Part shown: positions 10,154-28,400 of the stretch, piece by piece
Layout of the letters: each line of letters begins with the position of its first letter
Position numbering within the stretch: the stretch's first letter is position 1
NCBI GenBank assembly: GCA_016186045.1
Contig: JACPMJ010000007.1
Coordinates: forward strand, 1-57,322
Direction of reading: 5' to 3'
DNA length: 57,322 nt
Source: Candidatus Uhrbacteria bacterium
Lineage (GTDB): Bacteria; Patescibacteriota; Patescibacteriia; JACQRZ01
Notes under the pieces: generated by a model
Seen by the model: only the letters and a program-made list of their open reading frames with translations
Database searches by the model: none
Told to the model about the DNA's origin: nothing
Made by a program: the position numbers and the translations under genes

Positions 10154-13100
10154 TTATGATTTCTTTGAATTTTCTTTTTTGTTTATCAAATTACCTTGAG
10201 CTTGGGTAAGAGATCCTAATTGCTCAATTTTTTCTCCTTCACTCAACGCGGTATTCTTCAAAATTCCCGCTTGTTGTTGGTTGAGGGTTTTTAATTTCTT
10301 GTCAGTATTATCGCTCACACCGGATGGTTTCGCGTCTGCCGTTTGTTTTGATTCTCCTTTTGGCGAGTCTGCTGAAGATTTTACGGATGCACCTCCGCCG
10401 GATGATCCGCCAACACTGCCACCTCCGCCACCCCTGCCTGATGGCCCACTACTCACAGCTCGAGCGCCACCGGACGTCTCCTCGCCTCCGCCGGAAAGCC
10501 CACCCAATTCTCGCGCGATTTTTTGTCTTTCTCTGTCAATGGCTCTGGTCTCCTCTGTCCGCTTGTGCGGATCTTGGATAGCTGTCGCCTCCTTGTATAC
10601 TCTATCAAGATCACTCATTTGAGATTGAAGCTCTTGCGTACGCGCTTCTTTTTCTACTTGAGCGTTTTGCGCCTGTCGTTCCGGTCGCCGCTGTGCCTCG
10701 CGCTCCTGAAGCTGTTTCTCAAGACCTTGTATTTCTTTTTGAACATCTTGGAGGCTTCTTCCCCCTGCGTTTTTCTCGCCACGCATCATCGCATCCTTCA
10801 TACTGTTCAGCCGAGAAATCCGTACACCCAACGGCAAATTTTTCGTATCCTCACCCTGCGGAGGAGGCTGTTGGCCCGTATCTTGCATCGTTACTTCTAT
10901 GGTTTCTTTTTGTGCACCTTTGTCACCGGTACCAAACCTGCGATCATCAGATAATTTCTGTTTTTCTTCTTGGATACGCGCTTTCAAATCTTCTATGGTA
11001 TGCCCTTTTGCTTTTTCCTGATCAGTCAAATTCTTTGCGGTTGCTCCCAATGTTACCTTGCGAAGCTCATATCCTTCAGCATTCGGATCCAAACCAAGAA
11101 GCGCCGCCTCCGCCTGTTTGCGCCCTTTTTGAATTCGTTTCTGGTCTTCCTGTTCCTTTGTAAGGTCATTTTCCATTCGTGAAATTTTTCCTGCGTGCGA
11201 TGGCTGGGCAGGCTGAGGCGATAGTTTTGCGGCATGTGCCTCCATTTCCTTGCCAATTTCTTCTTTCACTTCCTTTTCGTTCTTTTCCTTCGCCGGTGGT
11301 GACTCTGGTTTTTGCGCAACTCCACCTCCCATGGGAGTAAGTGTCCTAAAGGGCTTTTGATCAGTCGGCCTCCCTCCGCCAAGCGTCTCCTCCGCCATAC
11401 TCTTGAGATCCTCAAGCTCACTCTTTTCTTTTACCGGCGGTGGCTCTGGTTTTTTAAATAATTCATGCAGTCCTTTTGACTTATCCCACTCCTCCTTTGC
11501 GCCTTTAGCTAGAGAGGTATCTCCTATGGCTTCCCCCGCTTTTTTCGCAAGAACTCCTATATCAGTTGCTTTGTTAATCTCTCCAAATTTTTTCTTTCCT
11601 CCTTCTATCGCTTTGTCAGCTTTGACTGCGGCGGTTCCTACTCCCACCATCACACGGTTTCCAGTAGCCTGTGCTCCTCTTGATAGAGCTCCCTTAGCAG
11701 CAGAAAATGCTTCTCCCGGATTTTTGTATACTGATCCAACCTTTGTTGCCGTAGCCTGAGCTCCGGCTGTAAATTTGCCTCCCACGGTCCGTGCGGCTCC
11801 AAGAGCGGCTTGCATTCCTGTGCTCGCCTTCTCTTTTGCGGCTCCACCTAATTTTCCTAAACCCTCCGCGCCAGCCTTGCCAAGCGCGGGAACATCTGTC
11901 TTTGCCATGGTACCAGCCAGCCGCACAGCGCCCTTTCCGGCTGACTTCAATGCTCCAATACCCGCCCGCCCAGCGGCTCCGGCAATTCCCGGAACTGCTT
12001 TCGCACTGCCTTTTGCAAAACTGCCAATCGCGGCTCCTGCCTTTCCTGCGCCTGTTGCGCCGGCTCGCGCAGCAGCTGCTATACCTGCAGGAGCCGACTT
12101 CGCGAGCTGGACCGCCCCGGCGCCAACCTTTTTCGCGCCTGCTGCACCGGCTTTTGCTCCGGCACCAGCAAGCTTAAATGGCATTGCCGCCGTGCCTGCT
12201 CCTATACTTTTCATTTTATTCATAGCACCTGCGGCTATGCCACCACCTACACTTGAGAGCTCCTGTGCCGCAACAAGGCTTGCCAATAGCATGACAATAC
12301 CCAGGATAAACCCCGCAATGCCCGGCGCAGTGCCGGCTATGGACGTTCCCACAGAAAGCGCTCCTGATTTAGGATCTTTGGAATCTGGCCACTCCTGGTC
12401 CCCAAGCTCCCGATGAATCTGGACATCTGACGCGTCTTTTTTACCCTCAGCCGCATTTTGCGTCACCGCCAGAGAAATCCAAAGAAAAAATGCCAATACC
12501 GGACCCAAAATAACATAATTTGCAAAATTCTTCCACCACCTTCCTGAAAGCTGTTGCGCCATATCTATGGGAACCGCGGAAAGAAAAAACGCAAACGGCG
12601 AAAGCGTCACCAAAAACCAAATCGCAACAATGCGGATAATAAGCTGGATTGCGATAACCGCGAGCACTACCAACGCAATAAAAGAATAAATAAGCCCGAA
12701 AATCAAAGAGATAAAAATAGTGTTATAATTAACGTCACTACCTTCGGTCATCTTCAAGACATTTTGCACGCCAAGCATCGCCATGAAATTTCCCGGGCCT
12801 GCGGCAGAAAACGCACCTACGAACGTCATCATCACCACTTGCGCGAAATCTATGAGTAATCCACAGATGGTACGAGAAAAATTGATGAGAATCGCCATGA
12901 GAATAAGCTTGGGAAGTGTCCGTGAATAATGGTATTTTTCCTGCTGTAAAATGGTGCCTGCCGCAATAGCCAAAAGCACAAGCACAAAAAACATATTGCA
13001 GATATCCCGCACAATACCCCAGCCTTTTGCAACGGCAGTGGAAAAAATAAAGTCATTATAGCTGGCAACTGCTATAATGATATATATGAGAATGGTAATG

Positions 13101-13300
13101 CACTTGCCGACCAATCCAAGAATCAAATTGACCAAATATCCAAATCCTTGTGCGAGTTTTTCTCCAACAGTGCCGATAGCAGTACCCTGGGCATACGCAT
13201 GTTCGGCAAATCCAAATACGCCAATGCCGACTCCCATACAAATGAGCAATAAAAAAAGCACTGCTCTTTTCTTGCGCGCAATTCGTTCACATAGTGCCAT
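10154..13300 (-). CDS. VirB6/TrbL-like multi-pass membrane protein with Ala/Gly-rich and charged C-terminal regions
   Basis: 1048-aa ORF; signal peptide followed by several TM helices (FGYLVNLILGLVGKCITILIYIIIAVASYNDFIF...), then a low-complexity C terminus; T4SS context. Confidence 0.8.
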   Translation of the reverse strand: MALCERIARKKRAVLFLLLICMGVGIGVFGFAEHAYAQGTAIGTVGEKLAQGFGYLVNLILGLVGKCITILIYIIIAVASYNDFIFSTAVAKGWGIVRDICNMFFVLVLLAIAAGTILQQEKYHYSRTLPKLILMAILINFSRTICGLLIDFAQVVMMTFVGAFSAAGPGNFMAMLGVQNVLKMTEGSDVNYNTIFISLIFGLIYSFIALVVLAVIAIQLIIRIVAIWFLVTLSPFAFFLSAVPIDMAQQLSGRWWKNFANYVILGPVLAFFLWISLAVTQNAAEGKKDASDVQIHRELGDQEWPDSKDPKSGALSVGTSIAGTAPGIAGFILGIVMLLASLVAAQELSSVGGGIAAGAMNKMKSIGAGTAAMPFKLAGAGAKAGAAGAKKVGAGAVQLAKSAPAGIAAAARAGATGAGKAGAAIGSFAKGSAKAVPGIAGAAGRAGIGALKSAGKGAVRLAGTMAKTDVPALGKAGAEGLGKLGGAAKEKASTGMQAALGAARTVGGKFTAGAQATATKVGSVYKNPGEAFSAAKGALSRGAQATGNRVMVGVGTAAVKADKAIEGGKKKFGEINKATDIGVLAKKAGEAIGDTSLAKGAKEEWDKSKGLHELFKKPEPPPVKEKSELEDLKSMAEETLGGGRPTDQKPFRTLTPMGGGVAQKPESPPAKEKNEKEVKEEIGKEMEAHAAKLSPQPAQPSHAGKISRMENDLTKEQEDQKRIQKGRKQAEAALLGLDPNAEGYELRKVTLGATAKNLTDQEKAKGHTIEDLKARIQEEKQKLSDDRRFGTGDKGAQKETIEVTMQDTGQQPPPQGEDTKNLPLGVRISRLNSMKDAMMRGEKNAGGRSLQDVQKEIQGLEKQLQEREAQRRPERQAQNAQVEKEARTQELQSQMSDLDRVYKEATAIQDPHKRTEETRAIDRERQKIARELGGLSGGGEETSGGARAVSSGPSGRGGGGGSVGGSSGGGASVKSSADSPKGESKQTADAKPSGVSDNTDKKLKTLNQQQAGILKNTALSEGEKIEQLGSLTQAQGNLINKKENSKKS

Positions 13301-13360
13301 ACTTTTCTTCTGCTTTCTTAATATATATAGTATATCACAGTATCAAAAATCAGCGCAGTG

Positions 13361-13395
13361 AATAAAAAAAGACAGAAAACTCTTTTTCTGTCTGG
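13361..13395 (-). terminator. Hairpin A, copy a
   Basis: gacagaaaactctttttctgtc; on the minus strand the stem is followed by a T-run; sits after the 13462 gene stop and before the VirB6-like gene. Confidence 0.75.
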
Positions 13396-13461
13396 TTGAT
13401 GTCATTCCTCGGTACGCCATCCGTCAGCTGGCGAATGACTCGAGGATCGGCATTTTTGCCG

Positions 13462-15075
13462 CTATGGGCCGATGAGCGCCTCCTCGCTCACACGGTACAG
13501 CAGATGGCTGTTTGGAGTCCCGGCAAGTATGCCGCCATCATCTGTCAGGAGAAGGTAGAACTTCCGCTCTGACGCAGAGTACACCACGTACTCTATTTTC
13601 CATGCCTGGCCGCAACGTCCCCATTCGCTACAACTGAAACTTACATTCTGATGGTCCGAGTCCGCGAAGTACTGGAGAATCTTATTGCTACTACCGGTCT
13701 GGCGCCAATCTTTGAGATTGTACTGCCAGCGAGCAATGCTCAGATTCTGCATGAAATAGTTGTCGTCGCATACGGATATGGTCCACGGACCGTCGAACAT
13801 GGTCTCGCGACACGCTGAATTTGCGGTATTCCACGAGAAATACCATAGTGCGGTATTAGTTGCTGCCATGCGGGAGTGGAGGAGGTCATACAAGAATCCC
13901 GGCGTGGCGAAGTATTCCGGAATGGCGATGGATGTTTCTCCCGAGGGAATGGTCCCCGCGCGAATCTGCATGGTTTGCGCGGTGGTGTCCCAGCCTTCCA
14001 AGAGCTTTTTCTCCGGATATGTACTCCAGGCATTGAAAAAGTATCTTGGGCCGTTACTGTATCTCTTGCTGTAATCAACGGGGGCGTACTTTATGCAAGA
14101 GCCATACTGGTGAATATACAGGTATTCATAGCCTGGTTCGACGAATTCGAATGACTCCCCGCTATCCGCGATTTTGAACACGCCGGCATGGAGACTGCCA
14201 CTTGATCTGCACATGCGATCATTATCTGAAAATCCAAAGCCATCCATGTAGGTCCAATAGAACGCTGAGATATTGAACCGTATTTCGCCCGTCTGGGAAT
14301 AGGCGATACCGTCTATTCTTGTTTTACCAAGATACGGATTACTGCCTATATAGTACCCCTTATCGCCGGGATACAGAGGTATGTACGGCCCCGCCCCTTT
14401 GATCTCCGTGAGTCTTTCCAAGCCGGGAACGCCGTTTACTTGCGTAAACAACGGTGGCGGAGTGGGCGTGGGTGTAGGTGTTGGAGCGGGCGTAGGCGTG
14501 GGTGTGGGTATGGGTGTGGGTGTTGGAGCGGGTGTAGGAGTTTTACTTGCTATCAACCGCATGGTGACGTTGATAGCCTTATTCTCCATTACCTCCACAG
14601 ACTGGCTCGCCTGTGCCACTACTCTAGTGACATCGTCTTCCGCCCTAACAAGTAGAATAATGGGGCCTACTGGCAGAAATTCACGCGGGGATTTGGGCAG
14701 CGTGACAGAACTTGTCGCAGCATTTTCCACATCACCTGCCGGATAAGCAAATGCTTGAGCGATCTCTGTACCATCAAGCTTGAGCGCCATAAACCTGATC
14801 CACATGGTATTAGATGGAATGACCTGAACACCACGACGTGCCGGCCAACGGATGGTCAGTGTCGCGTGCCGTGCCCATTTCGTAGGATCATCCGCGACAA
14901 TTTTGTTCGCTGATGCACTATCGTCGGAATGTACCGGAACGGACGAGACATCCAAAGAGAGCTTATTGGCTACGGATGGGCTAGACGACTCCTTTGTATT
15001 GAGAGGCACTGTGGAACAGGCGATAAGGAAGCTGGCGAAGATCCACATTGAACCGAGTTGTATCCTCTTGTGCAT
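13462..15075 (-). CDS. Lipoprotein with PT-repeat linker and C-terminal SEEAL motif
   Basis: Lipobox FLIACS, TPTPAPTPTPIPTPTP linker, C terminus LLYRVSEEALIGP. Start set at ATGCACAAG behind TAAGGAG (ORF extends to 15096). Confidence 0.75.
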   Translation of the reverse strand: MHKRIQLGSMWIFASFLIACSTVPLNTKESSSPSVANKLSLDVSSVPVHSDDSASANKIVADDPTKWARHATLTIRWPARRGVQVIPSNTMWIRFMALKLDGTEIAQAFAYPAGDVENAATSSVTLPKSPREFLPVGPIILLVRAEDDVTRVVAQASQSVEVMENKAINVTMRLIASKTPTPAPTPTPIPTPTPTPAPTPTPTPTPPPLFTQVNGVPGLERLTEIKGAGPYIPLYPGDKGYYIGSNPYLGKTRIDGIAYSQTGEIRFNISAFYWTYMDGFGFSDNDRMCRSSGSLHAGVFKIADSGESFEFVEPGYEYLYIHQYGSCIKYAPVDYSKRYSNGPRYFFNAWSTYPEKKLLEGWDTTAQTMQIRAGTIPSGETSIAIPEYFATPGFLYDLLHSRMAATNTALWYFSWNTANSACRETMFDGPWTISVCDDNYFMQNLSIARWQYNLKDWRQTGSSNKILQYFADSDHQNVSFSCSEWGRCGQAWKIEYVVYSASERKFYLLLTDDGGILAGTPNSHLLYRVSEEALIGP

Positions 15076-15085
15076 ACTCATCTCC

Positions 15086-15733
15086 TTACTCCACAATCAC
15101 GTTCACTTTTCCACCGGATTTGACAGTCACGGACAGAGAGGATGATGCCTTTCCATCCAATGAAGCTGCGATGATAGCGGCAACGCCTTCTGATTGCGAC
15201 CGCACAACGCCATTCTGCACCGAAGCTATCCCCGGATCTGAAGATGACCATGTTACTGAGGAGTTTGTCGAGGTATCTGACATGGTCACAATCGCATTGA
15301 GCTTGACTTCCACTGGATTCAGTTGCCCGTCTGGATTTTGAGCGCTTACATGAATCGTCGTAGACGACTCAGCTCGTATTTGCACTTTGACGGCATATGA
15401 CGCAGGCGTAGGAGTTGGCGTGGGGATTGGCGTTGATACAGGCGTCGCCGTTTGAACGGGCGTTGTTGACGGAGATGAGGTTTGTCCCGCAGACTGGCTG
15501 GGGCTGGGCGTGATATACACTGAAGCGCTCACGCTTGGCGAAACGCTTGGAGATGAGGAGACGTCTGTATTTGGTGCCGGAGACTGGTCTTGCGAACCTG
15601 TAGGAAGCGGCGATTCTGCTGGCTTTGCAGAAGAGCTCGTTTGTGCAGGATCCGATCCATTGAGTGGGGGTATGAGCGCTACACAGCCCGCAAGGGCTAT
15701 GAACGCCAAGGGAAGCGCAGATATCCGCTTCAT
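15086..15733 (-). CDS. Lipoprotein with PT linker and BIG_2-like bacterial Ig domain
   Basis: Lipobox FIALAGC; VEVKLNAIVTMSDTSTNSSVTWSSSDPGIASVQNGVVRSQSEGVAAIIAAS matches the BIG_2 pattern; RBS AAAGGAGG. Confidence 0.75.
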   Translation of the reverse strand: MKRISALPLAFIALAGCVALIPPLNGSDPAQTSSSAKPAESPLPTGSQDQSPAPNTDVSSSPSVSPSVSASVYITPSPSQSAGQTSSPSTTPVQTATPVSTPIPTPTPTPASYAVKVQIRAESSTTIHVSAQNPDGQLNPVEVKLNAIVTMSDTSTNSSVTWSSSDPGIASVQNGVVRSQSEGVAAIIAASLDGKASSSLSVTVKSGGKVNVIVE

Positions 15734-15795
15734 GGGCTTGTATTCCTCCTTTTCTTTATTTTTTAAGGTACTGCAAAGGGAATTCTACAACACAC

Positions 15796-15820
15796 AAAAA
15801 ACCGTGTCAAGGAGACACGG
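15796..15820 (-). promoter_or_regulatory. Hairpin B, copy 1: terminator of the coiled-coil gene overlapping a promoter for the 15733 lipoprotein
   Basis: Minus strand: CCGTGTCTCCTTGACACGGTTTTTTGTG; TTGACA-17-TAGAAT lies across the hairpin. Confidence 0.7.
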
Positions 15821-15843
15821 CCATCCTTATTTTGTTTGACGAA

Positions 15844-16284
15844 TCAATTCGTCACTAAATTGAGTTTCATTTTGATAAACTGAATTTCCTGTTCCTGTTT
15901 GTCAACTTGCAACTGAATACGTTTCAACCACTCAATGGCAAACGCATGATCTTCTTCAATACGCTTCATGCGAGTCGCAATCTCCTCCAGTATTCCCAAC
16001 ATGTGCCGATAATCAGTTTTCGTCACCATCGTCTCTTCAATACGTGACAACCGCTCTCCATGATCAACGGCGGTTCCAATAAGCGAATCAAGTTTCTTAT
16101 CATGATCGTCGAGACGAGATTCTATCTTGTCAAACCGCGCGTCATGCTCTGCGAACTTCGCATCCATCTTGTCAAACCGCGCGTCATGCTCTGCGAACTT
16201 CGCATCCATCTTATCAAACCGCGCGTCAATCTTACCAAACAGTTGGTCATGATCCTCAAGTTTTTTAAAAATTTTGTCTTCCAT
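15844..16284 (-). CDS. Coiled-coil protein with tandem FDKMDAKFAEHDAR repeats
   Basis: ATG at 16284 (MEDKIFKKLEDHDQLF); promoter TTGACC-16-TATACT lies upstream (and inside the longer ORF call); the 42-bp repeat is visible in DNA. Confidence 0.7.
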   Translation of the reverse strand: MEDKIFKKLEDHDQLFGKIDARFDKMDAKFAEHDARFDKMDAKFAEHDARFDKIESRLDDHDKKLDSLIGTAVDHGERLSRIEETMVTKTDYRHMLGILEEIATRMKRIEEDHAFAIEWLKRIQLQVDKQEQEIQFIKMKLNLVTN

Positions 16285-16360
16285 ATATTCTTCAGTGATA
16301 TATCTCACCCATTCAGTATACTCTCTCAAAAAGGACGGTCAATAGTGGAAAAAATAAAAA

Positions 16361-16384
16361 GACAGAAAAACGCTGTTTTCTGTC
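16361..16384 (-). terminator. Hairpin A, copy b
   Basis: gacagaaaaacgctgttttctgtc, T-run on minus strand. Confidence 0.8.
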
Positions 16385-16454
16385 TGGATTGGTGTCATCC
16401 CAGAATGACAGTTTTTAGACAGTCTGAGGCGGACTCCCTCGCAATGACAATGAC

Positions 16455-17558
16455 TTATGGAACGAGCGCCTCCTCGCTGATGCGGTAAAGTCTATCTCCA
16501 TAAGCCTTTACCGACGTCAATATGTAGAATTTTTTTTCACTCTGTGAGTATACGAAGTGGTAGACGACCGCTGGGCCATAGCTACTGCCGAAAGACTTAA
16601 AGTACTCAACAATATTCTTACCGACCACTTCCTTCTCACCCGTTTCGTGAACGCGGAAAATGGAGGTACGGGGATCGCCAGCTATCCGAACAGATGCACT
16701 TGTCCTACCAATGAAGTAGGCGGTGGTACCGGTAAATGCCGTCCGCTCCCGCACAACGGTCAGCGCACGCTCATTCTCACAGGTCGCATCCACGCATGGA
16801 GCCTTTCCATAGTCTGGCCCGTCATCGTACGTTTTATCATCATCCAAACCAAAGATGTCCGCACTGGCGACATCTGACAGCTTGAGCGAGCCGGTGTTCT
16901 TGGTCCAGACGCTTGTGTTGAAAGAAATTTCTTTCTTCGCGACATCCACGCTCTTCACTACCCACGGTGCTACGGAAACACTTGCGGCTTCCGTGAGTTT
17001 GGAAAAGGCGAAGTCCCGCCTGGGATACTCTCCATAGAAAGTCTTTCCTGAATCCGGTTGTCCTGGGATCACTGTTTTTTTCTGACCCAGTGCGATGTAT
17101 TCAAATTCATCCTTGACACTCGTTTTCTTGAAAATCGCGAAATTTCTAAACTGCACTAGTTCAGTATCGCACGTTGAACATAGAAGCGGAGTGGATCCAT
17201 GAGGAATAATCGTCTGGATGTACATATCTCCGGACGCGGAAAGGGCAAGCCCCTCTTGACCTGGGTTATTTTCTTGTCTCTTGCCAAGATATCCACCAAT
17301 TCCCGATACTCTCTCCAGCCCGGCAACACCCTCTACCGGCACAAAATTTATCTTCAGGATATTATCCGGAAGCGGAGTCGGCACTGGCGTAGGAGTGGGT
17401 GACGGGGTAGGGGTAGGCACCGGGGTCGGAGATTGCGCCACCGTAGGCGCGGAAGTTGCGGTTTGCGCGGTGGTGTCCGCTTTTTGCGTTTGTTGCGGCA
17501 CTGATGCCACACAACCGGCGATGGCGACGAGCGCGAGAGGGAGGCTCTTCTTGAACAT
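16455..17558 (-). CDS. Lipoprotein with PT linker and SEEAL C terminus
   Basis: MFKKSLPLALVAIAGCVASVPQQTQK; C terminus RLYRISEEALVP; paralogue of 21535..22623. Confidence 0.8.
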   Translation of the reverse strand: MFKKSLPLALVAIAGCVASVPQQTQKADTTAQTATSAPTVAQSPTPVPTPTPSPTPTPVPTPLPDNILKINFVPVEGVAGLERVSGIGGYLGKRQENNPGQEGLALSASGDMYIQTIIPHGSTPLLCSTCDTELVQFRNFAIFKKTSVKDEFEYIALGQKKTVIPGQPDSGKTFYGEYPRRDFAFSKLTEAASVSVAPWVVKSVDVAKKEISFNTSVWTKNTGSLKLSDVASADIFGLDDDKTYDDGPDYGKAPCVDATCENERALTVVRERTAFTGTTAYFIGRTSASVRIAGDPRTSIFRVHETGEKEVVGKNIVEYFKSFGSSYGPAVVYHFVYSQSEKKFYILTSVKAYGDRLYRISEEALVP

Positions 17559-17636
17559 GATGGGGTACCCTTTCCTTTCTTTTCTGATGATTGTCATTCC
17601 AGACTCGATCTGGAATCCAGTAATTTATAGCCTTTT

Positions 17637-17706
17637 TGTGAAGGTACGGACTTACAAAAAGAATCCTACACACAAAAAGAGAGGGTGTCAATGGGACACC
17701 CTCTTC
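17637..17706 (-). promoter_or_regulatory. Hairpin B, copy 2, plus conserved downstream 40 bp (promoter of the 17558 lipoprotein)
   Basis: Minus strand: GAGGGTGTCCCATTGACACCCTCTCTTTTTGTGTGTAGGATTC; TTGACA-17-TAGGAT. Confidence 0.7.
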
Positions 17707-18392
17707 AAATGGCGCTCTGCCAAAAATTGAGTTGTGATTTTTAATTTTTTCGGTACGCGCAATTCATGAATGATAGGAGCCACTGTTTGCCAATCATCTT
17801 CTGTAAAATATCGCCAAAGCATACGGGAAATATATCTGCTATAATATTGCCGTTTCTCGGATTCATTGTGCCATGGCCGTTTGCAAAGCAACCCATCCCA
17901 ATTTGTAAGCGCCTCAATATCGCGCGATGTATAGCGTATCATAGTGATACATGTTCAATAAGATATGCAATCTGACGTTCCACACACGCGCGATTTTCTT
18001 CCGCATCGCGAAGAAAAATATGCAGAGGAATGGTAAACGACGTTTTTTTATCTAAAAGTTCTGTTAATAATTTTTCTTCAGTGATAGCACCTAGTCCGAA
18101 TTTTTCTTCCGCAAATTCTTCCAAGTCTTTTAGCAGCCATCCTTGTTGTTTTGTAAGAAACGCAAGATCTATGTAGTCTTTTATCTCGTCACGCGAACAA
18201 AGAGCTGAAGCCTTACTCGCCGCGCTATCCCTCAACCCCGCCGTTCGAATATTTCCAAATAATACAAACTCGTCAATATTTCTATTACCGTCCGCGAAAG
18301 GTATCACAAAACAAGGGATCGCGCTCAAATATACGCACTATCTCCCTCTGTTCGCCGGTTAAATCAATAAACTCTTTTAAATCATGCACCAT
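17688..18392 (-). pseudogene. AbiEii-like nucleotidyltransferase remnant (18392-17939) plus coupled downstream ORF (17942-17688)
   Basis: ATG at 18392 gives MVHDLKEFIDLTGEQREIVRIFERDPLFCDTFRGR*; the C-terminal part (AGLRDSAASKASALCSRDEIKDYIDLAFLTKQQG) is in another frame and the catalytic GG/GS..D.D segment is absent. The next ORF overlaps by ATGA. Confidence 0.6.
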
Positions 18393-18440
18393 ACACATTG
18401 ATTATACCAAACGCATACGCTTCGTCAAAAAAATAAAAAA

Positions 18441-18465
18441 GACAGAAAAAACGCTGTTTTCTGTC
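18441..18465 (-). terminator. Hairpin A, copy c
   Basis: gacagaaaaaacgctgttttctgtc; followed on minus by TTGACG-16-TATAAT. Confidence 0.8.
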
Positions 18466-18701
18466 TGGATTAGTGTCATCTCTTCTTTGTCATTCCAAAT
18501 CCCCGATCGTAGTCGAGGACAGGCCCGATCTGGAATCCAGAATTTTTTATTGATGCCAAGCAAAGCCTCATCGCGAAGTCCTGTCCGGTCAGACTGTCTA
18601 AGATCCTCGGGTCAAGCCCAAGCCTGTCCTCGGATTTGATCCGAGGAATGACATAAAAGGCAGGCTAAGAATGACAGTAATCACACTATTTTACGAGCTT
18701 T

Positions 18702-18750
18702 TTGTGAAGGTACGGACTTTAAAAAGGATTTTACACACAAAAAGAGAGGG
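18702..18750 (-). promoter_or_regulatory. Hairpin B, copy 3: left arm missing, promoter half retained
   Basis: Minus strand: ATGGTATATTGACACCCTCTCTTTTTGTGTGTAAAATCC; TTGACA-17-TAAAAT; the ATPase stop codon TGA lies in the -35. Confidence 0.65.
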
Positions 18751-18752
18751 TG

Positions 18753-19913
18753 TCAATATACCATAAGCGGATTTCCGGATTCAATGAGCTGTACATCTGT
18801 TTCGTATGATTTTGAGAATGACGTTTTCTTAAATGTCTTTTTTTTCCATTTTATTTCATACGCGCTTAGCGCGTCTCCCTCTTTTACGATCAAATCAACT
18901 TCTCCGCCAAAACGAGAACGCCAAAAATAAAGACTTCGTGTTCCGCCGCGCAAGAGATTATCTTTTGCCCATTCCGAGATCACCCAATTTTCCCATAACG
19001 CCCCGATATCGGAACGCAATGGACTCTGAGAAAATTCCTTAAGAATAGCATTTCGGACTCCCGTATCCCAAAAATAAATTTTTTTGCTTTTTGATATCTC
19101 TTTTCGCGGATTTGTGCTAAAAGCAGGCAAACAAAAAATAACATACGTTTGCTCAAGAAGCTCTATATATCGCTCTACAGTCTGTCGAGAAATACCAAGA
19201 GCTATGGATAGCTCATGTACTGAAACCTCCGATCCTATTTGATGCGCAAGAAGCATAAGTAAGCGATGTAATGAGACAGGAGTCTTTACGAGTCCAATTT
19301 GCAAAATATCTTTCAAGAGATAATCAGATGAAAGTTGAATAAGAAATGTTTCTTTTTCATGGGTTGTTATTGCTTCCGGATAGCTCCCGAAAACTATAGA
19401 TTGCATAAGAATTTCATGCACCTGACCTGAGAAATATTTCAATATATGATCATCAGTAAACGTATCGCTATACCATTCTTGAGCAGCGAGTATTTCACGG
19501 AATGCGAGCTGGGGAAGAAATAATTTTTCATTTCGCCCTGCTAAACTTTCTGCCGCTTGATTGAGAAGATTCAAACTTGAAGATCCAAGAAGAAATATTT
19601 TTACCTGGGTACTCGCGTCGTACCATCCTTTTATAATCCGAGCTGCTTCAGGAAGACGTTGTGCTTCATCCAGTACAAAAATCTTAGGGTTACCAAATAA
19701 CAGAATGGCATGAGTAGGATTTAATGAGGAGACAGAAAGAAATCGCTGGCGATCAACCTCAACATCCATATTCAGAAATATCACTTTTTCATCCTTAAAA
19801 ACGTGTTGAATAAGCGTTGTTTTGCCAACCTGCCGCGCACCTACAATAATCCCAATCTTAGATGTATGTAGCATTTTTAAGAGAATATTTTCTGCTTTTC
19901 TTTTTATAAACAT
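18753..19913 (-). CDS. AAA_14/DUF4143 family ATPase
   Basis: GARQVGKTTLIQHVF, IFVLDEAQRLPEAARIIKGWYD, LGSSSLNLLNQAAESLAGR, C-terminal FWRSRFGGEVDLIVKEGDALSAYEIKW. Confidence 0.9.
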   Translation of the reverse strand: MFIKRKAENILLKMLHTSKIGIIVGARQVGKTTLIQHVFKDEKVIFLNMDVEVDRQRFLSVSSLNPTHAILLFGNPKIFVLDEAQRLPEAARIIKGWYDASTQVKIFLLGSSSLNLLNQAAESLAGRNEKLFLPQLAFREILAAQEWYSDTFTDDHILKYFSGQVHEILMQSIVFGSYPEAITTHEKETFLIQLSSDYLLKDILQIGLVKTPVSLHRLLMLLAHQIGSEVSVHELSIALGISRQTVERYIELLEQTYVIFCLPAFSTNPRKEISKSKKIYFWDTGVRNAILKEFSQSPLRSDIGALWENWVISEWAKDNLLRGGTRSLYFWRSRFGGEVDLIVKEGDALSAYEIKWKKKTFKKTSFSKSYETDVQLIESGNPLMVY

Positions 19914-19951
19914 ACGATTATTCGCATTATAAATAATATTTTATATTATTA

Positions 19952-19981
19952 AGTATACAATATAGCCTGCTATATTGTCAA
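19952..19981 (-). promoter_or_regulatory. Promoter with a 22-bp palindrome between -35 and -10 (putative operator)
   Basis: Minus strand: TTGACA-18-TATACT; the palindrome ACAATATAGC-ag-GCTATATTGT spans 19957..19978. Confidence 0.7.
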
Positions 19982-20007
19982 ATATATTGACTAAAAGTAA
20001 TAAAAAA

Positions 20008-20057
20008 GACAAAAAAACGCTGTTTTCTGTCTGAGGATGTCAATGGGACACCCTCTC
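20008..20057 (-). terminator. Fused hairpins A (copy d) and B (copy 4) without the usual spacer
   Basis: gacaaaaaaacgctgttttctgtc directly followed by tgaggatgtcaatgggacaccctctc. Confidence 0.75.
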
Positions 20058-20097
20058 TCCATACTATTCTCACTATATATTTAATAGACGAAACCCT

Positions 20098-21228
20098 TTA
20101 AAGAATCTTTTGTAACGATATGCACCGTATTCTTCCTATCTGCCTCAAAATATGAGGGGGTTTTCTTCTCTTTTTTACCGCGTTCCACTTGCATTCATAC
20201 AAACTCACTCGGGACCCTTGCTCTTCTATGAGATCAATCTCTGCTCCGTCATATGTCCGCCAAAAATATTGCAAAGCAGAAATTCCGTGATACGCGCGAT
20301 ACTTCATCCGTTCGGCAATAATAAAATTCTCCCAGAGTCCGCCCATGTCCGTACGCTCACCTGAAAAATTAAAATTATTTATAATCACGTTCCGAATGCC
20401 GGTATCATAAAAGTATATCTTTTTCAGTTTTGTGATTTCCCGCCGTTTATTTTTTGTATACGGAGGAAGACGAAAAATAATGTAATTTTTTTCCAGTAAA
20501 TCTATATAGCGCTCTACGGTTTTCACATCTATGCCACACGTACGAGAAAGTTCATTCATTGAGTATTCCGATCCTATTTGAAGACCGAGCGCTTTGAGGA
20601 GAGAAAAAAGCACTTGCGGATTCTTCACTTGTTGAAATTCAAAAATGTCCTTATACAGAGCGCTGGATGCCAACTCACGCAAAAGTCTCTCTTTTGAATC
20701 AAAGGATGCCTGAGATACAATCTCAGGATATGATCCGAATATCATAAGATGTTCTATTTTTTTTCGCTGTGAGATCGGATCAAGCTCGGAAAATATTTCT
20801 TCTAACGAAAGAGGATAGAGAATATGCGTGAATTTCCTTCCCGTCAACGATTCTGATGTGGCGTCAAGAAGGTTAATACTTGATGACCCCGTCACGATAA
20901 TCTGTTTTTTCTTCTTATAATAATCCACAAGTATCTTGACTGTCTGTCCGATATCAGCTACTTTCTGACCTTCATCTATAAAAACAATATCATAATCGTT
21001 TACCAATCCTTTTAAAAATAAGCTATTCTTGCCCGCAAGAAGATCCCTGTCATGCGGATCATCACAATTAAATGACAGGATCTTTTTATTCTTAATCGTT
21101 GAGGCATGAAAAATGTCTTGCATGAGCGTAGTCTTGCCTACTTGTCTCGCGCCAATGAGGATGATCACTTTTCCAAGAAAAAAATCCTTTATGATAGTAT
21201 TCCTTAGTTTTCTGCGATAGTGAGTCAT
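20098..21228 (-). CDS. AAA_14/DUF4143 family ATPase
   Basis: GARQVGKTTLMQDIFH, IVFIDEGQKVADIGQTVK, VTGSSSINLLDATSESLTGRK, YFWRTYDGAEIDLIEEQGSRVSLYECKW. Confidence 0.9.
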   Translation of the reverse strand: MTHYRRKLRNTIIKDFFLGKVIILIGARQVGKTTLMQDIFHASTIKNKKILSFNCDDPHDRDLLAGKNSLFLKGLVNDYDIVFIDEGQKVADIGQTVKILVDYYKKKKQIIVTGSSSINLLDATSESLTGRKFTHILYPLSLEEIFSELDPISQRKKIEHLMIFGSYPEIVSQASFDSKERLLRELASSALYKDIFEFQQVKNPQVLFSLLKALGLQIGSEYSMNELSRTCGIDVKTVERYIDLLEKNYIIFRLPPYTKNKRREITKLKKIYFYDTGIRNVIINNFNFSGERTDMGGLWENFIIAERMKYRAYHGISALQYFWRTYDGAEIDLIEEQGSRVSLYECKWNAVKKRRKPPHILRQIGRIRCISLQKIL

Positions 21229-21298
21229 AAGCGTAAATTATGGATTACACTCCTTATTTTACACATATTCTTTTTCTTGTCAACCGCGTAATAAAAAA

Positions 21299-21322
21299 GA
21301 CAGAAAAACGCTGTTTTCTGTC
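21299..21322 (-). terminator. Hairpin A, copy e
   Basis: gacagaaaaacgctgttttctgtc; followed on minus by ACGCGGTTGACA-16-TAAAAT. Confidence 0.8.
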
Positions 21323-21534
21323 TGGACTGGTGTCATTTCTTCTTTGTCATTCCGAGCGGTCAGCGAGGAATCCCGACGTTAAAAACATGATACCAACGGG
21401 ATCCTTCACGGAGTTTATCCCAGATTGCGATCTGGGGTTCAGGATGACAGAAGTGAGTTTTTAGACGGTCTGAGATCCCGTTGATATAAGTAAAAAGCGT
21501 CGGGATTCTTCGAGCTTTACCCTCAGAATGACAA

Positions 21535-22623
21535 TTACGGAACGAGCGCCTCCTCGCTGATGCGGTAGAGTAAGAAGCCAGTATTCCTCGCGAGTATGTA
21601 GAACTTATGATCTGTCCGTGAGTACACAAAGTTGTGCACCACCTGTACATACGAAGATTTCGTGAAGTATGCGGCAACGCTTTTGCCCACTATCTCTTTT
21701 GCGCCGCTCTCACTGACGCGGAAGATAGTCGTACTTGTTCCTATATCATCCCTGCCAATGAAGTATGCGATTGCACCGGTGAACGCTGTCCGCTCTCGCA
21801 CCACAGAAAGCGCACGATCATCCTCGCATTCCGGAGTATTGCACGATCCTTCCCATGGAAGAATTCTAGCATAAAGACTGGAGAGCAGCACATCTCTGCC
21901 GAAAAAATCTCCGCTCGCGACATCCGAAAGCACGAGGGGCCCCGTATTCTTTGGCCAGACCGCGGTGTCGAAGCTGACCTTCTTACTAGCACGGTCCACG
22001 CTCTTCACCACCCATGGCGCCATGGAGACACTCGCGGCTTCACTCAATTTTGAGAAGGTGAAGTCCTCTCTCTCATAGAGGTAGCCTATTTTCCCGGGAT
22101 CTGAAGAGTTTGGTCCCCAAATGCCTTTTCCTGACATTGCGACGTATTCAAATTCGTCCTCGACGGTTGTCTTCTTAAAGACCGCATAATTGGGGTCATT
22201 GCCTGAACGAGATATATTCATATCACAGGCAGGACAGAGAACAGGAATAGAATTAGTAGGAATCGATACCTGAATATACATATCCCCTGATGCGGAGCTC
22301 GCAATGCCGAAGACCCTAAATTGTGAATATCCATAATTCACAGGAGAAGCGCCGAAAGTTCCGTTATCTATTAGTTCGATTTCGGGCGGCGCGGGCTGAT
22401 CTGGCCAGAATTTCAACTTGAGAATCGATTTCGGAAGCGGAGTGGGTACTGGCGTGGGAGTTGGCTTGGGGGTGGGAGTAGGCGACGGGGTCGGAGATTG
22501 CACCGCCGTTGGCGCGGAAGTTGCGGTTTGCGCGGTGGTGTCCGCTTTTTGCGTTTGTTGCGGCACCGATGCCACACAACCGGCGATGGCGACGAGCGCG
22601 AGAGGGAGGCTCTTCTTGAACAT
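21535..22623 (-). CDS. Lipoprotein with PT linker and SEEAL C terminus
   Basis: MFKKSLPLALVAIAGCVASVPQQTQKADTTAQ; C terminus FLLYRISEEALVP; N terminus and upstream DNA nearly identical to the 16455..17558 gene. Confidence 0.8.
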   Translation of the reverse strand: MFKKSLPLALVAIAGCVASVPQQTQKADTTAQTATSAPTAVQSPTPSPTPTPKPTPTPVPTPLPKSILKLKFWPDQPAPPEIELIDNGTFGASPVNYGYSQFRVFGIASSASGDMYIQVSIPTNSIPVLCPACDMNISRSGNDPNYAVFKKTTVEDEFEYVAMSGKGIWGPNSSDPGKIGYLYEREDFTFSKLSEAASVSMAPWVVKSVDRASKKVSFDTAVWPKNTGPLVLSDVASGDFFGRDVLLSSLYARILPWEGSCNTPECEDDRALSVVRERTAFTGAIAYFIGRDDIGTSTTIFRVSESGAKEIVGKSVAAYFTKSSYVQVVHNFVYSRTDHKFYILARNTGFLLYRISEEALVP

Positions 22624-22696
22624 GATGGGGTACCTTTCCTTTCTTTTCTGATGATTGTCATTCCAGACTCGATCTGGAATCCAGTAATTTATAGCC

Positions 22697-22767
22697 TTTT
22701 TGTGAAGGTACGGACTTATAAAAAGAATCCTACAGCTAAAAAGAGAGGGTGTCAATGGGATGCCCTC
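22697..22767 (-). promoter_or_regulatory. Hairpin B, copy 5, plus conserved downstream segment (promoter of the 22623 lipoprotein)
   Basis: Minus strand: CCATTGACACCCTCTCTTTTTAGCTGTAGGATTC; TTGACA-17-TAGGAT. Confidence 0.7.
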
Positions 22768-22794
22768 GCAACACTCCCTCAATACACACTTCAT

Positions 22795-23217
22795 CTATTT
22801 TTTCAGTTGCCGAAAAATAAATACGATATATTTTGTAAAATCTTTCACATTTGAGCGGAGAAGCGAAAGGAAGAGATGGGTGTCTACACTCTCATATCGG
22901 TGCACTATGCGATTTCGCAAACCAACAATCGGCGCCATTTTCTCCGCAAAATTTTTAGGCAGTATGCCGCGCTCCGCAAGCGTAAAAAATGTGCTTTGAT
23001 AATCTTCAGAGATAGGAAGATTTAGTTCCCGGATAAAATACGTATTGATGTCAATAATAGTATCAACAATAAGCTGAAGAAGCCTTTCCGCAATATGCAA
23101 TTTCCCTGAATCAGATTTGATCTGCTTATCTGAACACGCCAAAAGATCTTCCAATTCTTTGAGGTATTTGTCAATTTCAGTAAGTTTTTTTGTGACAAAC
23201 GCTTTTTCAAACCCCAT
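22795..23217 (-). CDS. HepT-like HEPN toxin
   Basis: 140 aa with RNRIVHRY (Rx4HxY motif); overlaps the 3' end of the MNT gene. Confidence 0.85.
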   Translation of the reverse strand: MGFEKAFVTKKLTEIDKYLKELEDLLACSDKQIKSDSGKLHIAERLLQLIVDTIIDINTYFIRELNLPISEDYQSTFFTLAERGILPKNFAEKMAPIVGLRNRIVHRYESVDTHLFLSLLRSNVKDFTKYIVFIFRQLKK

Positions 23218-23605
23218 ATTTTTTTGTTAAACGCAAGTGTTGATCCCGATAGAGCGGCGCCGCTTCAACGAATTGCTTAAACGCATATCCACGCATATGC
23301 GCAAAAATAAATTTTTGAGCTTCATACAATACTTTTCCGTCTTTAAAAATCGCATACAGTAACAACGGCGATGTTTTCTTGAGATTCACAATGTCAATGG
23401 CATCATTTGCAAAAAACAACGAGAGATCATATGCCAGCGCGGTTTCTTGCGCAAGAGAAAGTGTTTTCTTTGATTGAAATGCAATATCAATATCGCTCGA
23501 TGGCAGCGCCTTCCCTGTTGCGCGTGAACCAAAAAGCACAAGCAAGCTCAGCGAATACTTCCTTGCAATTTCGGTGATAGTTTTTTTCTTCGATATTTTT
23601 TTCAT
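23207..23605 (-). CDS. MntA-like minimal nucleotidyltransferase antitoxin
   Basis: LFGSRATGKALPSSDIDIAF matches GSx10DxD; start set at MKKISKKKTITEIARKY. Confidence 0.87.
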   Translation of the reverse strand: MKKISKKKTITEIARKYSLSLLVLFGSRATGKALPSSDIDIAFQSKKTLSLAQETALAYDLSLFFANDAIDIVNLKKTSPLLLYAIFKDGKVLYEAQKFIFAHMRGYAFKQFVEAAPLYRDQHLRLTKKYGV

Positions 23606-23683
23606 ATATTTTTCTCCTTCTATCATATCATGAACACCTATCATCGGCAACCATGTCAAAATAATAAACCACGTAATAAAAAA

Positions 23684-23707
23684 GACAGAAAAACGCTGTT
23701 TTCTGTC
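23684..23707 (-). terminator. Hairpin A, copy f
   Basis: gacagaaaaacgctgttttctgtc. Confidence 0.8.
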
Positions 23708-23835
23708 TGGACTGGTGTCATCCCGAGTCCCTCGGGAATACTCGGGATAAACTCCGTGGAGGGATCCCGAAGCTATACTGTTTTAGCGTCGGGATTGCCA
23801 CGGTCGCTATCGCTTCCTCGCAATGACAGAAACAA

Positions 23836-23895
23836 GGACTAACTTATAAAAAGAATCCATCACACAAAAAGAGAGGATGTCAAGTGGACACCCTC
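23836..23895 (-). promoter_or_regulatory. Hairpin B, copy 6, plus conserved segment
   Basis: Minus strand: GAGGGTGTCCACTTGACATCCTCTCTTTTTGTGTGATGGATTC; TTGACA-17-ATGGAT. Confidence 0.6.
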
Positions 23896-23898
23896 TTC

Positions 23899-25134
23899 TT
23901 ACTTCAGTAAGAAAGGCACAAAATACAATGGATATGCTTTCACTTCTGAAGATATTCTTGGACTATCTTGCCAATATACTCCGAAACATGACGATTGAGG
24001 ATGTAATTTTTGAAATAAGGAAAAATCATAGCGATGCGAGCTCTTTTTCTTAATTTCAACGGCAATCAACCTCTCTTGGAACTGCATGACAAAATCTATT
24101 TCTCTCCCAGTTTTTGTCCGCCAAAATTGAGGTTTAATTTCCCGCTTTATACATTCTTGAAACAACGCGTTCTCCAAAAGCGCTCCATTATCGCCTCGCG
24201 CGTCCAATGAACGAAAATCATTTACCACGCTATTTCTTAATCCGGTATCAAAAAAGTACATTTTGGGATTTTTAACAAGCTCTTTACGCTTATTTGTAAA
24301 ATAGGGCCGAACAAAAGAACAGATGAATGTTTTTTCTAAAAAATTTAATTGCTTTTTAAGCGTTATATATGAATATTCCGAGATAGTACATAATTCCGTG
24401 TAGTCAATCAAATTCCCAATCTGCAATCCAAGCGCCTTGATGAGTTTTTCAAATTTATAATCGTCAATAAGTCCGAGTAGATCCCGTACATCCCGTAAAA
24501 AATATGTACTATAGATATTCTTGAGAACTTCACGTTTTTCATCTAATGACTCTGACGCGAGAACGCGCGGATAACCGCCAAATAACGTATATTCCTCAAA
24601 TAATTTTGAAAAGGTGTATTGTATCTCGTCTGATAGTGAAAGAAGCTTCATTTGCGAAACGCGACGACCATACGAAAGATATGTTTCAGAAAGATGCGGC
24701 GCTTTCCACGTAAGAAACTCTTCAAAATCAAATGGATATAAATTAAAAATAAAAATACGTCCGACGAGATATTTCACCGCTTGCACCGTAAGATCAATAC
24801 TTGATGATCCTGTAACAATAATTTTAAACTGATACTGGTCGTATATATATTTTAATTTTTTTCCCCCTTCGCTCGCATACTGAAATTCATCAATAAAAAG
24901 ATACTTTGATTTTCCATAGATACTGGCAAAATTTTTGATATCTCTTTCAAAAAGGGAGAGCGTATCTCTGTCTTCAAAACTGATCATTTGCGCGGATGAT
25001 AATCTTTTAGCAAGCTCTTTTATAAGCGTCGTTTTACCGCATTGCCGCGGACCAATAATTGCCAAAATCTCAGGAGCTTCCAAATATCGTAAAATAGTGT
25101 TCTCTAATTTCCTTTTAATATACATATAAAACAA
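23899..25134 (-). CDS. AAA_14/DUF4143 family ATPase
   Basis: GPRQCGKTTLIKELAKRL, KYLFIDEFQYASEGGKKLKYIYDQ, VTGSSSIDLTVQAVKYLVGR, FWRTKTGREIDFVMQFQERLIAVEIKKK. Confidence 0.9.
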   Translation of the reverse strand: MFYMYIKRKLENTILRYLEAPEILAIIGPRQCGKTTLIKELAKRLSSAQMISFEDRDTLSLFERDIKNFASIYGKSKYLFIDEFQYASEGGKKLKYIYDQYQFKIIVTGSSSIDLTVQAVKYLVGRIFIFNLYPFDFEEFLTWKAPHLSETYLSYGRRVSQMKLLSLSDEIQYTFSKLFEEYTLFGGYPRVLASESLDEKREVLKNIYSTYFLRDVRDLLGLIDDYKFEKLIKALGLQIGNLIDYTELCTISEYSYITLKKQLNFLEKTFICSFVRPYFTNKRKELVKNPKMYFFDTGLRNSVVNDFRSLDARGDNGALLENALFQECIKREIKPQFWRTKTGREIDFVMQFQERLIAVEIKKKSSHRYDFSLFQKLHPQSSCFGVYWQDSPRISSEVKAYPLYFVPFLLK

Positions 25135-25208
25135 TATATCTTACTAAAATTATAGTACTCTATAAGAGTAGTATATATTTATATTTTTGTCAACCGCGTA
25201 ATAAAAAA

Positions 25209-25232
25209 GACAGAAAAACGCTGTTTTCTGTC
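25209..25232 (-). terminator. Hairpin A, copy g
   Basis: gacagaaaaacgctgttttctgtc; followed on minus by ACGCGGTTGACA-17-TACTCT. Confidence 0.8.
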
Positions 25233-25376
25233 TGGACTGGTGTCATCCCAAGCGGAACAATGTCATCCCGAGTCCCTCGGGAATACTCGGGATAAACTCC
25301 GTCGAGGGATCCCGATGTTTTCTACTTATAAATACGGGATTCCTCGTTTCACTCGGAATGACAAAATGAGGGAAAT

Positions 25377-25445
25377 TGTGAAGGTACGAACTTATAAAAA
25401 GAATCCACCACACAAAAAAAGACCGTGTCAAGAGAGACGACGGTC
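25377..25445 (-). promoter_or_regulatory. Hairpin B, copy 7: terminator of the giant gene plus conserved segment
   Basis: Minus strand: GACCGTCGTCTCTCTTGACACGGTCTTTTTTTGTGTGGTGGATTC; TTGACA-17-GTGGAT. Confidence 0.6.
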
Positions 25446-25475
25446 TTTTCTAAACCACTTTCCTTTTTCACCTTC

Positions 25476-28400
25476 CTAATGCAATGGAGTATCGCTACTG
25501 CTAAACTCTCCGGGCTGTTTTGTATCTATGGGAAGCTTAAGCGTCTTGCATATCTTTGTCTTCCGACTCCAGTTGTCCATGGCCTCTATGCACACCCTAT
25601 TGCCATCAATCTTACTGTTTCTAAACGTATAACTGTTGAGGGCGAATTTAGGGTTTTTACAAGGAGTCTCCGACGGCTCCGACGACGTACATGGCGGCTG
25701 ATCCTTGTACCCATCTCCTTCATCTTTTACAGGAAGTATGGGAAAGACATTATACGAATCTTCGGGATTCACATCGCTTGAGGATAATGTCACATACCGC
25801 AAAGGAAGCTGATCATTGTCCACGTCAACATAAAATTCTATCTTTACGATCGGCGCGCTCGCGGCTCCGATCTTTATCCAGCTGAAGCTGTCTGCGGCTC
25901 CTTCTTTGTTGTAGATGCCCGGATAGCGTACCGGCCAAGCGGCGTCATTAAACCAGCGCGGCGCTGTTTTTCCCTCTGTTGCTCTGAACCTGCCGCTTGA
26001 GCCAGGCACGCCGCTTGATGACGCATCTTCATATACCTTCGCAAACGGGATGGGATGAGACGCGTAATCAAAATCATCCGCGTTAAAGTTGGATACTGTT
26101 GTGCCGGGAGCGAGAGTATTCAAAATACTCTTATCAAAATCTGAAAGAAAGAGGTTATATGTGGCATTCGTGTCATCCCACAACGGCGGCGGAGTAATCT
26201 TGCTATTATACACATCCAATGAAATCCTCCAGCCATTTGTGGCATCTCCTATGAATTTCGGTTGGCCTGAATACGGACTATTGTCGCTTGTTCGCGCCTC
26301 TAAAACATCTGTAAAATCTTTTATGGGGCTGTTAGCTGTTTTCAGCGCGACAAGAATCGCTTCTCGTTCCCTATCCGGACGGGTGTTTATGACAGCATTA
26401 TAGTTTGTATTACTGCCACTCGTATATTCTGACCACTTACTCCAATCCCAGTTAAATTTCTTCGTATCAAGCTTAAAATCTGCAACCGGAGCGCTTGGGA
26501 GCGAAAAATCAGATACGGGATCAGATGTGATTTCCGCGTTTTTGTTATACAACTTTGGTCTACTCTTGTAATATTGCTCCAATGTCTGCCTTTCACCGGT
26601 CTCATCCTCTGAATGATTTTTCGTTCCATTTGGATCTCTAGCTGCCGCCCGTTCATTGATGGTAAAGCCAAACCGATCTGCACCACTGCCCTTTGAGCCG
26701 TACCACCGCCATTGCGATATGGTGCGTTTCAGGATGATGGGCCCGGTGGACGTGGCACCTGCTTGCATCGTGGTAAGCTGTTTTCCCTTGGCTCCGCCCC
26801 AGTCAGGTTTCTCTACGTTTTTTACGATTGAATAAAACGGCACTGATTTTTTTTCTTGTGCCACGCGCACCACGCGCGCGCAATACACATCCCGATAGGT
26901 CGCCTTTGCGGTGATGTTATATCCGCCTTTTCCCAAAAGTCTGCCTCTTTGGGGGATAGGTATTGACACGCCTTGATTAGTCGCTTCCTCATTTTCTATT
27001 TCTGATTTTGGCGTCAAATTGCAAGAGGGTCCACCCATGTTCGCTCCATTATATTCAAGTACTTCCGTATAGTTTTTCGCGCAGTTGTTTACAAATCTAC
27101 CTTCTGTAGCATCCCAATGCCATTCTGTCTCCACGGTGCCTTTACGCGTGATGGTGGATGGGGGAATAACATCTCCGCCATAGGAATTATACCCAATCGT
27201 GTCCTCTCTCTCTTGGGGATCAGCGTATGCGGATGTGCCATCGGCACGATATCCTCCGGCAGTAGTACTGTATACTTCAACGAGTCTTCCCGTTATCTTG
27301 CCATTATTCGGATCTATTCCTAGGCCTACTAAGCCCTGAGGAGTACCCCCTTTTGTAGAAAAATCTCCTTGATAAAACTCTACCCTTGCGATTGGCACTA
27401 TTTCCCATTTACCGGTGGTTGCATTTTTAACAATTTTCTTTTCCACAGTAGTCACTCTGTCCTTTCTCATCACCGTCTCTTCCGCTTGCATCTTTGTATC
27501 TGCACACGGGTTGGAGGTGCAGGTTTCCACCTTATATCCCGTTTGACTAGAACCAGTTGCCCAGTCGCTCTGGTCTATATCGCCATCTTTATTACTATAC
27601 TCTCTATCGCCATACGACCCCGGTCCTCCGGTTCGAACTTTATCTACTCGATGCGTATTTTTTTCTCCGCAGGTAACCGTGCTTCGTGTTTTACACTCAT
27701 TCCATGTTTGCCCATGACACTCAACAGTTCTTTCACAAACTCTACTGGATCCCACCCAATAATCTTGAAAATGGTAGAAGTCTTGACACGTTCTTTCGGC
27801 ATTAGTTGTGGCATCATCTGGACACTTATACTCTCCTCCTGAGGAATTCTCTCCTGGATTTCCATCACACTCGTCCTTTGGGGGGTCGTTCCCACCAATT
27901 TGACCACCTGTTTTACCAGTACCGCATGCTCCTTCCTCTGCTTTATGAGTAAAAGTATTGGGACCATAGAAGTCCGCAACCGCGGCGTCCCATCCTCCTA
28001 CACAAGGATAAGAGTCTTTGCACTCATAAGGCGTTGTCGTAAAAACCCTTCTCCATGGCTGTTCTTGAGGTATATTAGAAGTACGCCAGTCTTCACTTAT
28101 ACCCGGAACTCCACTCATAGCAGTCACCGGGCTCGGATCGTATGTTGTGACTTTCTTTTTTGCAGGCAATTCCACATACCTTTGCGTACCATTCGCGCAT
28201 TTACCGTCTCCATCATTAGTTGGTCCGGCTCCTCCAAATGCTTTATCCTTAGCCTCATCACACGTCTCCACAATGCGCGCTATGACATCTGTTGTTGGGG
28301 CGAGTACGTTTCTTGCTGGGTAGTCGCTTGGATGCGTTGGGACTCCATCCTTTGTTGTAAGATCTCCCGTGTATGTTTTAGGGTATCCTGAAACATTTGT

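Follow-up and report, generated by a model that had tools for sequence, protein, structure and literature searches.

After intrinsic termination, RNA polymerase can remain on the DNA and re-initiate at nearby promoters, as single-molecule work on recycling pairs from E. coli and B. subtilis has revealed (PMC6978380, PMC6978322, PMC11347151). In meningococci, the rho-independent terminator of cbbA-fHbp is followed closely by the -35 and -10 boxes of a surface lipoprotein gene, and altering one arm of the stem lets transcription read through and supplement the gene's own promoter (PMC8026042). Terminators of the phages T7, T3 and SP6 bring stop and start signals within a few bp, the nearest start sites being 14 bp away (PMC11347151). 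Here we describe element B, a hairpin that occurs seven times on the minus strand of a 57,322-nucleotide (nt) stretch of a Candidatus Uhrbacteria genome (GCA_016186045.1, contig JACPMJ010000007.1, positions 1 to 57,322; hereafter the window). In B, the -35 box of a predicted promoter overlaps the stem of a predicted terminator. On present evidence B is probably a terminator-promoter relay that spread by duplication of an array of lipoprotein and defence genes.

B resembles the recycling pairs in joining an intrinsic terminator to a nearby promoter. The promoters in those studies lie up to about 1000 bp away, whereas the -35 box of B is within the terminator stem. B shares with cbbA-fHbp the succession of terminator, close promoter and surface lipoprotein gene, although in the meningococcal system stem and promoter boxes are treated as separate elements, and both sequence and organism are unrelated. 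As terminator strength upstream of the lipoprotein promoter can tune expression there, copies B5 and B3 might, by analogy, act likewise. The phage terminators match B in the closeness of their signals but differ in using single-subunit polymerases and promoters, not sigma70 -35/-10 boxes. We found no direct precedent for a -35 box inside a terminator stem in the open-access literature searched.

Copies of element B and their two signals

The seven copies span 15.8-25.45 kb, and each contains an intact TTGACA (Table 1; coordinates are those of the plus strand, and the array genes and elements lie on the minus strand). Every site named in the initial annotation does carry hairpin B, with no matches expected (pattern search, 100 shuffles). 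The TT of TTGACA belongs to the loop and GACA to the 3' (descending) arm of the stem, so that the same bases belong to both a terminator-like and a promoter-like signal, as had been proposed. Re-reading the sequence confirmed the hairpin sites, the position of TTGACA in loop and descending arm, the 17-bp spacing and every -10 hexamer given in that annotation. Copy 4, which it had left unscored, runs straight into a second hairpin, A. In two copies the TGA inside TTGACA doubles as the stop codon of the upstream open reading frame (ORF): in B2 at 17688-17691 (ORF 17688-17942) and in B3 at 18753-18756 (ATPase ORF 18753-19913).

Table 1. Features of the B and A elements and of the lipoprotein genes in the window
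Feature	Coordinates	Strand	TTGACA start	Remarks
B1 hairpin and T-tract, stem CCGTGTC/GACACGG	15800..15822	-		predicted terminator of ORF 15844-16329
B1 promoter TTGACA-17-TAGAAT	15782..15810	-	15810	upstream of lipoprotein gene 15086-15733
B2 hairpin AGAGGGTGTC CCATT GACACCCTCT CTTTTTGTGT	17680..17704	-		-17.4 kcal/mol, z -4.7
B2 promoter TTGACA-17-TAGGAT	17663..17691	-	17691	upstream of lipoprotein gene 16455-17561
B3 promoter TTGACA-17-TAAAAT, retained without a left stem arm	18728..18756	-	18756	
B4 hairpin (20033-20056) joined directly to hairpin A4 (20007-20032)	20007..20056	-	20043	without T-tract and -10
B5 hairpin, two broken pairs in left arm (GGGCATC)	22745..22767	-		-8.4 kcal/mol, z -0.6
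B5 promoter TTGACA-17-TAGGAT	22727..22755	-	22755	upstream of lipoprotein gene 21535-22626
B6 hairpin (23872-23896), a good terminator; intact TTGACA, -10 lost (ATGGAT)	23855..23896	-	23883	
B7, good terminator hairpin, outer stem GACCGT/ACGGTC, TTGACA intact, -10 lost (GTGGAT)	25403..25450	-	25431	after 3242-aa ORF
Lipoprotein gene after B2	16455..17561	-		
Lipoprotein gene after B5	21535..22626	-		paralog of 16455-17561 (61% aa)
Third lipoprotein gene, after B1	15086..15733	-		weak Big_2 match
Hairpin A6 terminator (16360-16385), then TTGACC-16-TATACT	16315..16385	-		-35 begins 17 nt past stem
Hairpin A5 terminator (18440-18466), then TTGACG-16-TATAAT	18401..18466	-		-35 begins 11 nt past stem
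Hairpin A3 terminator (21298-21323), then TTGACA-16-TAAAAT	21256..21323	-		-35 begins 14 nt past stem
Hairpin A2 terminator	23683..23708	-		
Hairpin A1 terminator	25208..25233	-		

We aligned six copies, leaving out copy 4. Twenty-one of ~71 columns were invariant, and TTGACA was the only invariant run of six; the left stem arm contained no invariant column. The chance of an invariant TTGACA was 4e-4 for this named site and 0.019 for a six-column run anywhere. Stem pairing gives no explanation for the two invariant T's in the loop. Judged by this alignment, the best-preserved part of B is its -35 box rather than its stem, the strongest support for the initial suggestion that the promoter is what is conserved. 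That suggestion stands for the -35 box and fails for the -10 box, which is kept in only four of the seven copies.

A sigma70-type -35/-10 pair at 16-18 bp is found in copies 1, 2, 3 and 5 and is missing from copies 4, 6 and 7. Across 456 kb sampled from this genome, a TAnnnT-type box occurs at 17 bp after 41 of 345 exact TTGACA sites, compared with ~10 at other spacings; this sharp excess indicates that the spacing in B is the one preferred by the genome. The copies said to have good -10 boxes before lipoprotein genes do have them (TAGAAT, TAGGAT and TAGGAT in 1, 2 and 5), and among the promoters listed no other strong one falls in the interval from B2 or B5 to the start codon of the lipoprotein gene.

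The terminator side follows a different distribution. Copies 1, 2, 6 and 7 fold at -14.2, -17.4, -16.2 and -17.8 kcal/mol, 3.4-4.7 standard deviations below shuffled sequences (z -3.4 to -4.7), and in all four a T-tract (CTTTTTGTGT / TTTTTTGTG) follows the stem directly on the coding strand. Copies 3 and 5 do not fold stably relative to shuffles: the hairpin of copy 5 is hardly better than they are, and copy 3, at -1.1 kcal/mol, is worse than most. The initial annotation was right that copy 3 has lost its left arm and kept its promoter. Fused copy 4 folds but has no T-tract. The hairpins lie 0-42 nt after the stop codon of the upstream gene. B1 and B2 have different outer stem pairs (CC/GG and GG/CC, respectively) that are complementary in each copy, which is what one expects if the hairpin forms in RNA. 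No Rfam family matched positions 13000-26000 at gathering score. From these features, the terminator appears good in copies 1, 2, 6 and 7, weakened in copy 5 and absent from copy 3.

Copies 1 and 2 appear to retain both signals. In copies 3 and 5 the promoter is kept and the terminator is missing or weak, in copies 6 and 7 the terminator has outlived the -10 box, and copy 4 is left with the stem alone. This distribution supports the idea that terminator and promoter functions decay independently.

Terminators and promoters in the genome and its relatives

Stopping and restarting transcription within ~45 bp had been called unusually compact. This did not hold up. In sample stretches of the same genome, which is 0.93 Mb (its relatives are small too), we counted 141 terminators and 174 promoter-like sites (at least 10/12 matches). 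Eleven promoters had a -35 box starting 0-40 nt past a terminator stem versus 1.08 expected, an approximately tenfold excess. Three of the 11 are A junctions of the array, and eight remain without them. In a class sample of nineteen 20-kb stretches, nine promoters lay 0-40 nt past a terminator, with 0.70 expected (loci L022-L033 and L205-L235 comprise the own-genome and class cases). Tight packing of stop and start signals is therefore ordinary in this genome, and the overlap in B is only ~20 bp tighter.

The usual offset of the -35 box past the terminator stem is +10 to +40. The offsets of B, -10 and -12, represent the only case of a -35 box inside a stem in the own-genome sample; the class sample contained one weak, AT-rich case. 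Since 0.54 such overlaps are expected per sample by chance, a single one needs no special cause, and duplication accounts for the many copies.

The A junctions resemble B in organization. At A3, A5 and A6, as in B, an intrinsic terminator is followed by a promoter, here a strong one of the form TTGAC(A/G/C)-16-TAnnnT. Unlike in B, the hairpin does not include the -35 box, which starts 11-17 nt beyond the stem.

Neither B nor A has further copies in the rest of the genome; both are confined to this locus. B was also absent from the 95 relatives searched and from IMG/VR, and full-length homologs of the lipoproteins occurred in their own genome only.

The array and its neighbourhood

The elements belong to a regular minus-strand array at 13370-25450, made of up to seven units in the order B, lipoprotein gene or REP-like (repetitive extragenic palindromic) remnant, A and cargo. 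The cargo resembles defence and toxin-antitoxin genes: three DUF4143/AAA_14 ATPases, an MntA/HepT-like pair and an AbiEii-like gene. A coiled-coil ORF is part of the cargo as well.

The proteins of all three lipoprotein genes begin with lipobox-like signal peptides. Between 16455-17704 and 21535-22767, DNA identity is ~98% over hairpin B, the 5' untranslated region, the signal peptide and a Pro/Thr linker, and then falls abruptly to about 50-60%. The high identity from B to the linker indicates that B travels within a promoter-plus-signal-peptide block, and that the block has been copied. The drop between the two paralogs points either to gene conversion or to a block duplicated recently, a pattern resembling that of families of variable surface lipoproteins.

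A REP/MITE-like (MITE, miniature inverted-repeat transposable element) sequence, CATTCCGAG, lies at 23716-23796, 25261-25315 and 21369-21421 and has 12 matches in the genome. Its copies flank lipoprotein genes and fill the B-A intervals that have none, which suggests loss of lipoprotein genes through recombination between them. Just upstream of the array, ORF 25476-35204 encodes 3242 aa with no clear Pfam family and a weak match to CBM_4_9; its product is probably a giant surface protein.

Weighing the readings of element B

Several observations weigh against reading B as a relay. Copies 6 and 7 retain TTGACA without a good -10 box, so promoter use explains the invariance of TTGACA incompletely. 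The copies are paralogous repeats of one element within a 10-kb locus and not independent events, and conservation among such recent paralogs is weak evidence of selection. A good -10 box is present in 3/3 copies preceding lipoprotein genes versus 1/4 others, a link that is suggestive, with numbers too small to test. In a family sample, promoters were not enriched beside terminators (none at 0-40 nt and one at 42, ~0.7 expected). Last, a class-wide scan for TGTC..TTGACA..TATAAT matched 55 of 380 genomes, and among the 30 loci read no comparable terminator stem with a T-tract was found.

Several of the class-wide matches were back-to-back divergent -35 boxes. In the examples at L046, G080:C96 and G192:C2, the -35 boxes of two divergent promoters make a TGTCAA..TTGACA palindrome.

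The alternative that survives best is that B is only a terminator. TTGACA would then be a coincidence, formed by the GACA of a GTGTC...GACAC stem and a loop ending in TT and copied by array duplication, while the lipoprotein genes would use other promoters or read-through. Terminators with the same stem are indeed common across bacteria. A GTDB scan for GGTGTC..TTGACACC plus T5 yielded 80 contigs with 84 terminator-like sites, at which a -10 box lay at 16-18 bp in 16/252 positions versus 150/3864 at other spacings (p 0.067); for better -10 boxes the counts were 8/252 versus 46/3864 (p 0.016). Elsewhere in bacteria, then, GGTGTC..TTGACACC terminators mostly lack a -10 box, and the arrangement recurs at low frequency, mostly by coincidence. 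The chance expectation for one overlap and the lack of a good -10 box in copies 6 and 7 agree with this alternative. Against it stand a TTGACA that is invariant, loop T's included, beside a left arm that is not, a copy 3 that retains the promoter without the stem, and the exact 17-bp spacing with a usable -10 box in four of six measurable copies. The lack of another listed promoter after B2 and B5 also speaks against it, and we regard it as rather unlikely.

A few of the terminators from the GTDB scan do carry a -10 box. Two of these, Clostridia loci (L105 and L123) before the gene of a MraZ-looking protein, were considered as precedents for the arrangement and rejected, as another promoter-like site lies nearer the gene.

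Another possibility is that B is a selected coupling device. Polymerase released at the terminator would re-initiate at the next promoter, tying surface lipoprotein expression to the upstream defence-like gene, and the duplicated block of relay, signal peptide and linker would plug in new lipoprotein domains. We consider this version very unlikely.

Could the invariant TTGACA instead be the recombination junction of a cassette array, at which the cargo between A and B copies is exchanged through a short shared sequence? Homology of B3 to the other copies begins exactly at TTGACA, whose TGA the upstream gene borrows as its stop, A1 and A3 are alike up to GCGGTTGACAA and divergent beyond, and the cargo is varied (DUF4143 ATPases, MntA/HepT-like, AbiEii-like). 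However, there is just one precise junction, A and B are unlike in sequence, no second genome has the array, and the REP-like elements flanking the lipoprotein genes are simpler recombination sites. These points make the junction highly improbable. An integron cassette array was rejected: no IntI in the genome exceeded the cut-off (TIGR02249), and the partial matches were of a kind also seen in all 14 control genomes.

There is at most a very small chance that the hairpin is a regulatory structure (an attenuator, or a repressor operator on the -35 palindrome) and not a terminator, for although a palindrome over the -35 box is in the classic operator position and, in L054 from the class scan, a long palindrome with no T-tract surrounds the -35 box, the stem of B is succeeded by a T-tract on the coding strand, the hairpins come directly after the stop codons of unrelated upstream genes, no Rfam family matches, and the outer stem changes with pairing kept between B1 and B2, as base pairing in RNA would predict and a fixed operator would not.

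The relay is the reading that we favour. The signals, their positions, the conservation of TTGACA and the enrichment of promoters beside terminators can be read directly from the DNA. Polymerase arriving from the upstream gene (HepT-like, AbiEii-like, DUF4143 ATPase or another array gene) would form the GTGTC...GACAC RNA hairpin and be released in the CTTTTTGTGT tract. The same duplex DNA would be a sigma70-type promoter, with the -35 box straddling the loop and 3' arm and the -10 box just past the T-tract; a likely start is the G/A 8 nt beyond the -10 box. Because the hairpin forms in RNA and sigma reads the -35 box as duplex DNA, there is no structural conflict and both functions can coexist.

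That each signal is active, where transcription starts and how the element evolved we infer from these features. Most probably a single event produced the overlap, in a genome that often places promoters next to terminators, and duplication of the array of B, lipoprotein gene, A and cargo would then have multiplied it. Both functions would have been kept in copies 1 and 2, with separate decay elsewhere of the terminator (copies 3 and 5) and of the promoter (copies 4, 6 and 7). A polymerase that terminates at B would come to rest over the spacer and -10 region of the following promoter, where it might briefly occlude that promoter or, by analogy with recycling, be used again directly.

Overall, B is a real, compact terminator-promoter junction of modest novelty, and the initial interpretation of it is half supported. 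If transcripts prove to begin and end at the predicted sites, B would be a naturally occurring minimal relay, ~42 bp long, with a single hexamer used for both stopping and starting, and it could help to find out whether polymerase that terminates obstructs the promoter ahead or supplies it. More broadly, promoters that abut terminators about tenfold above chance, in this genome and in the class sample, provide a simple, testable rule for how small genomes pack their transcription units.

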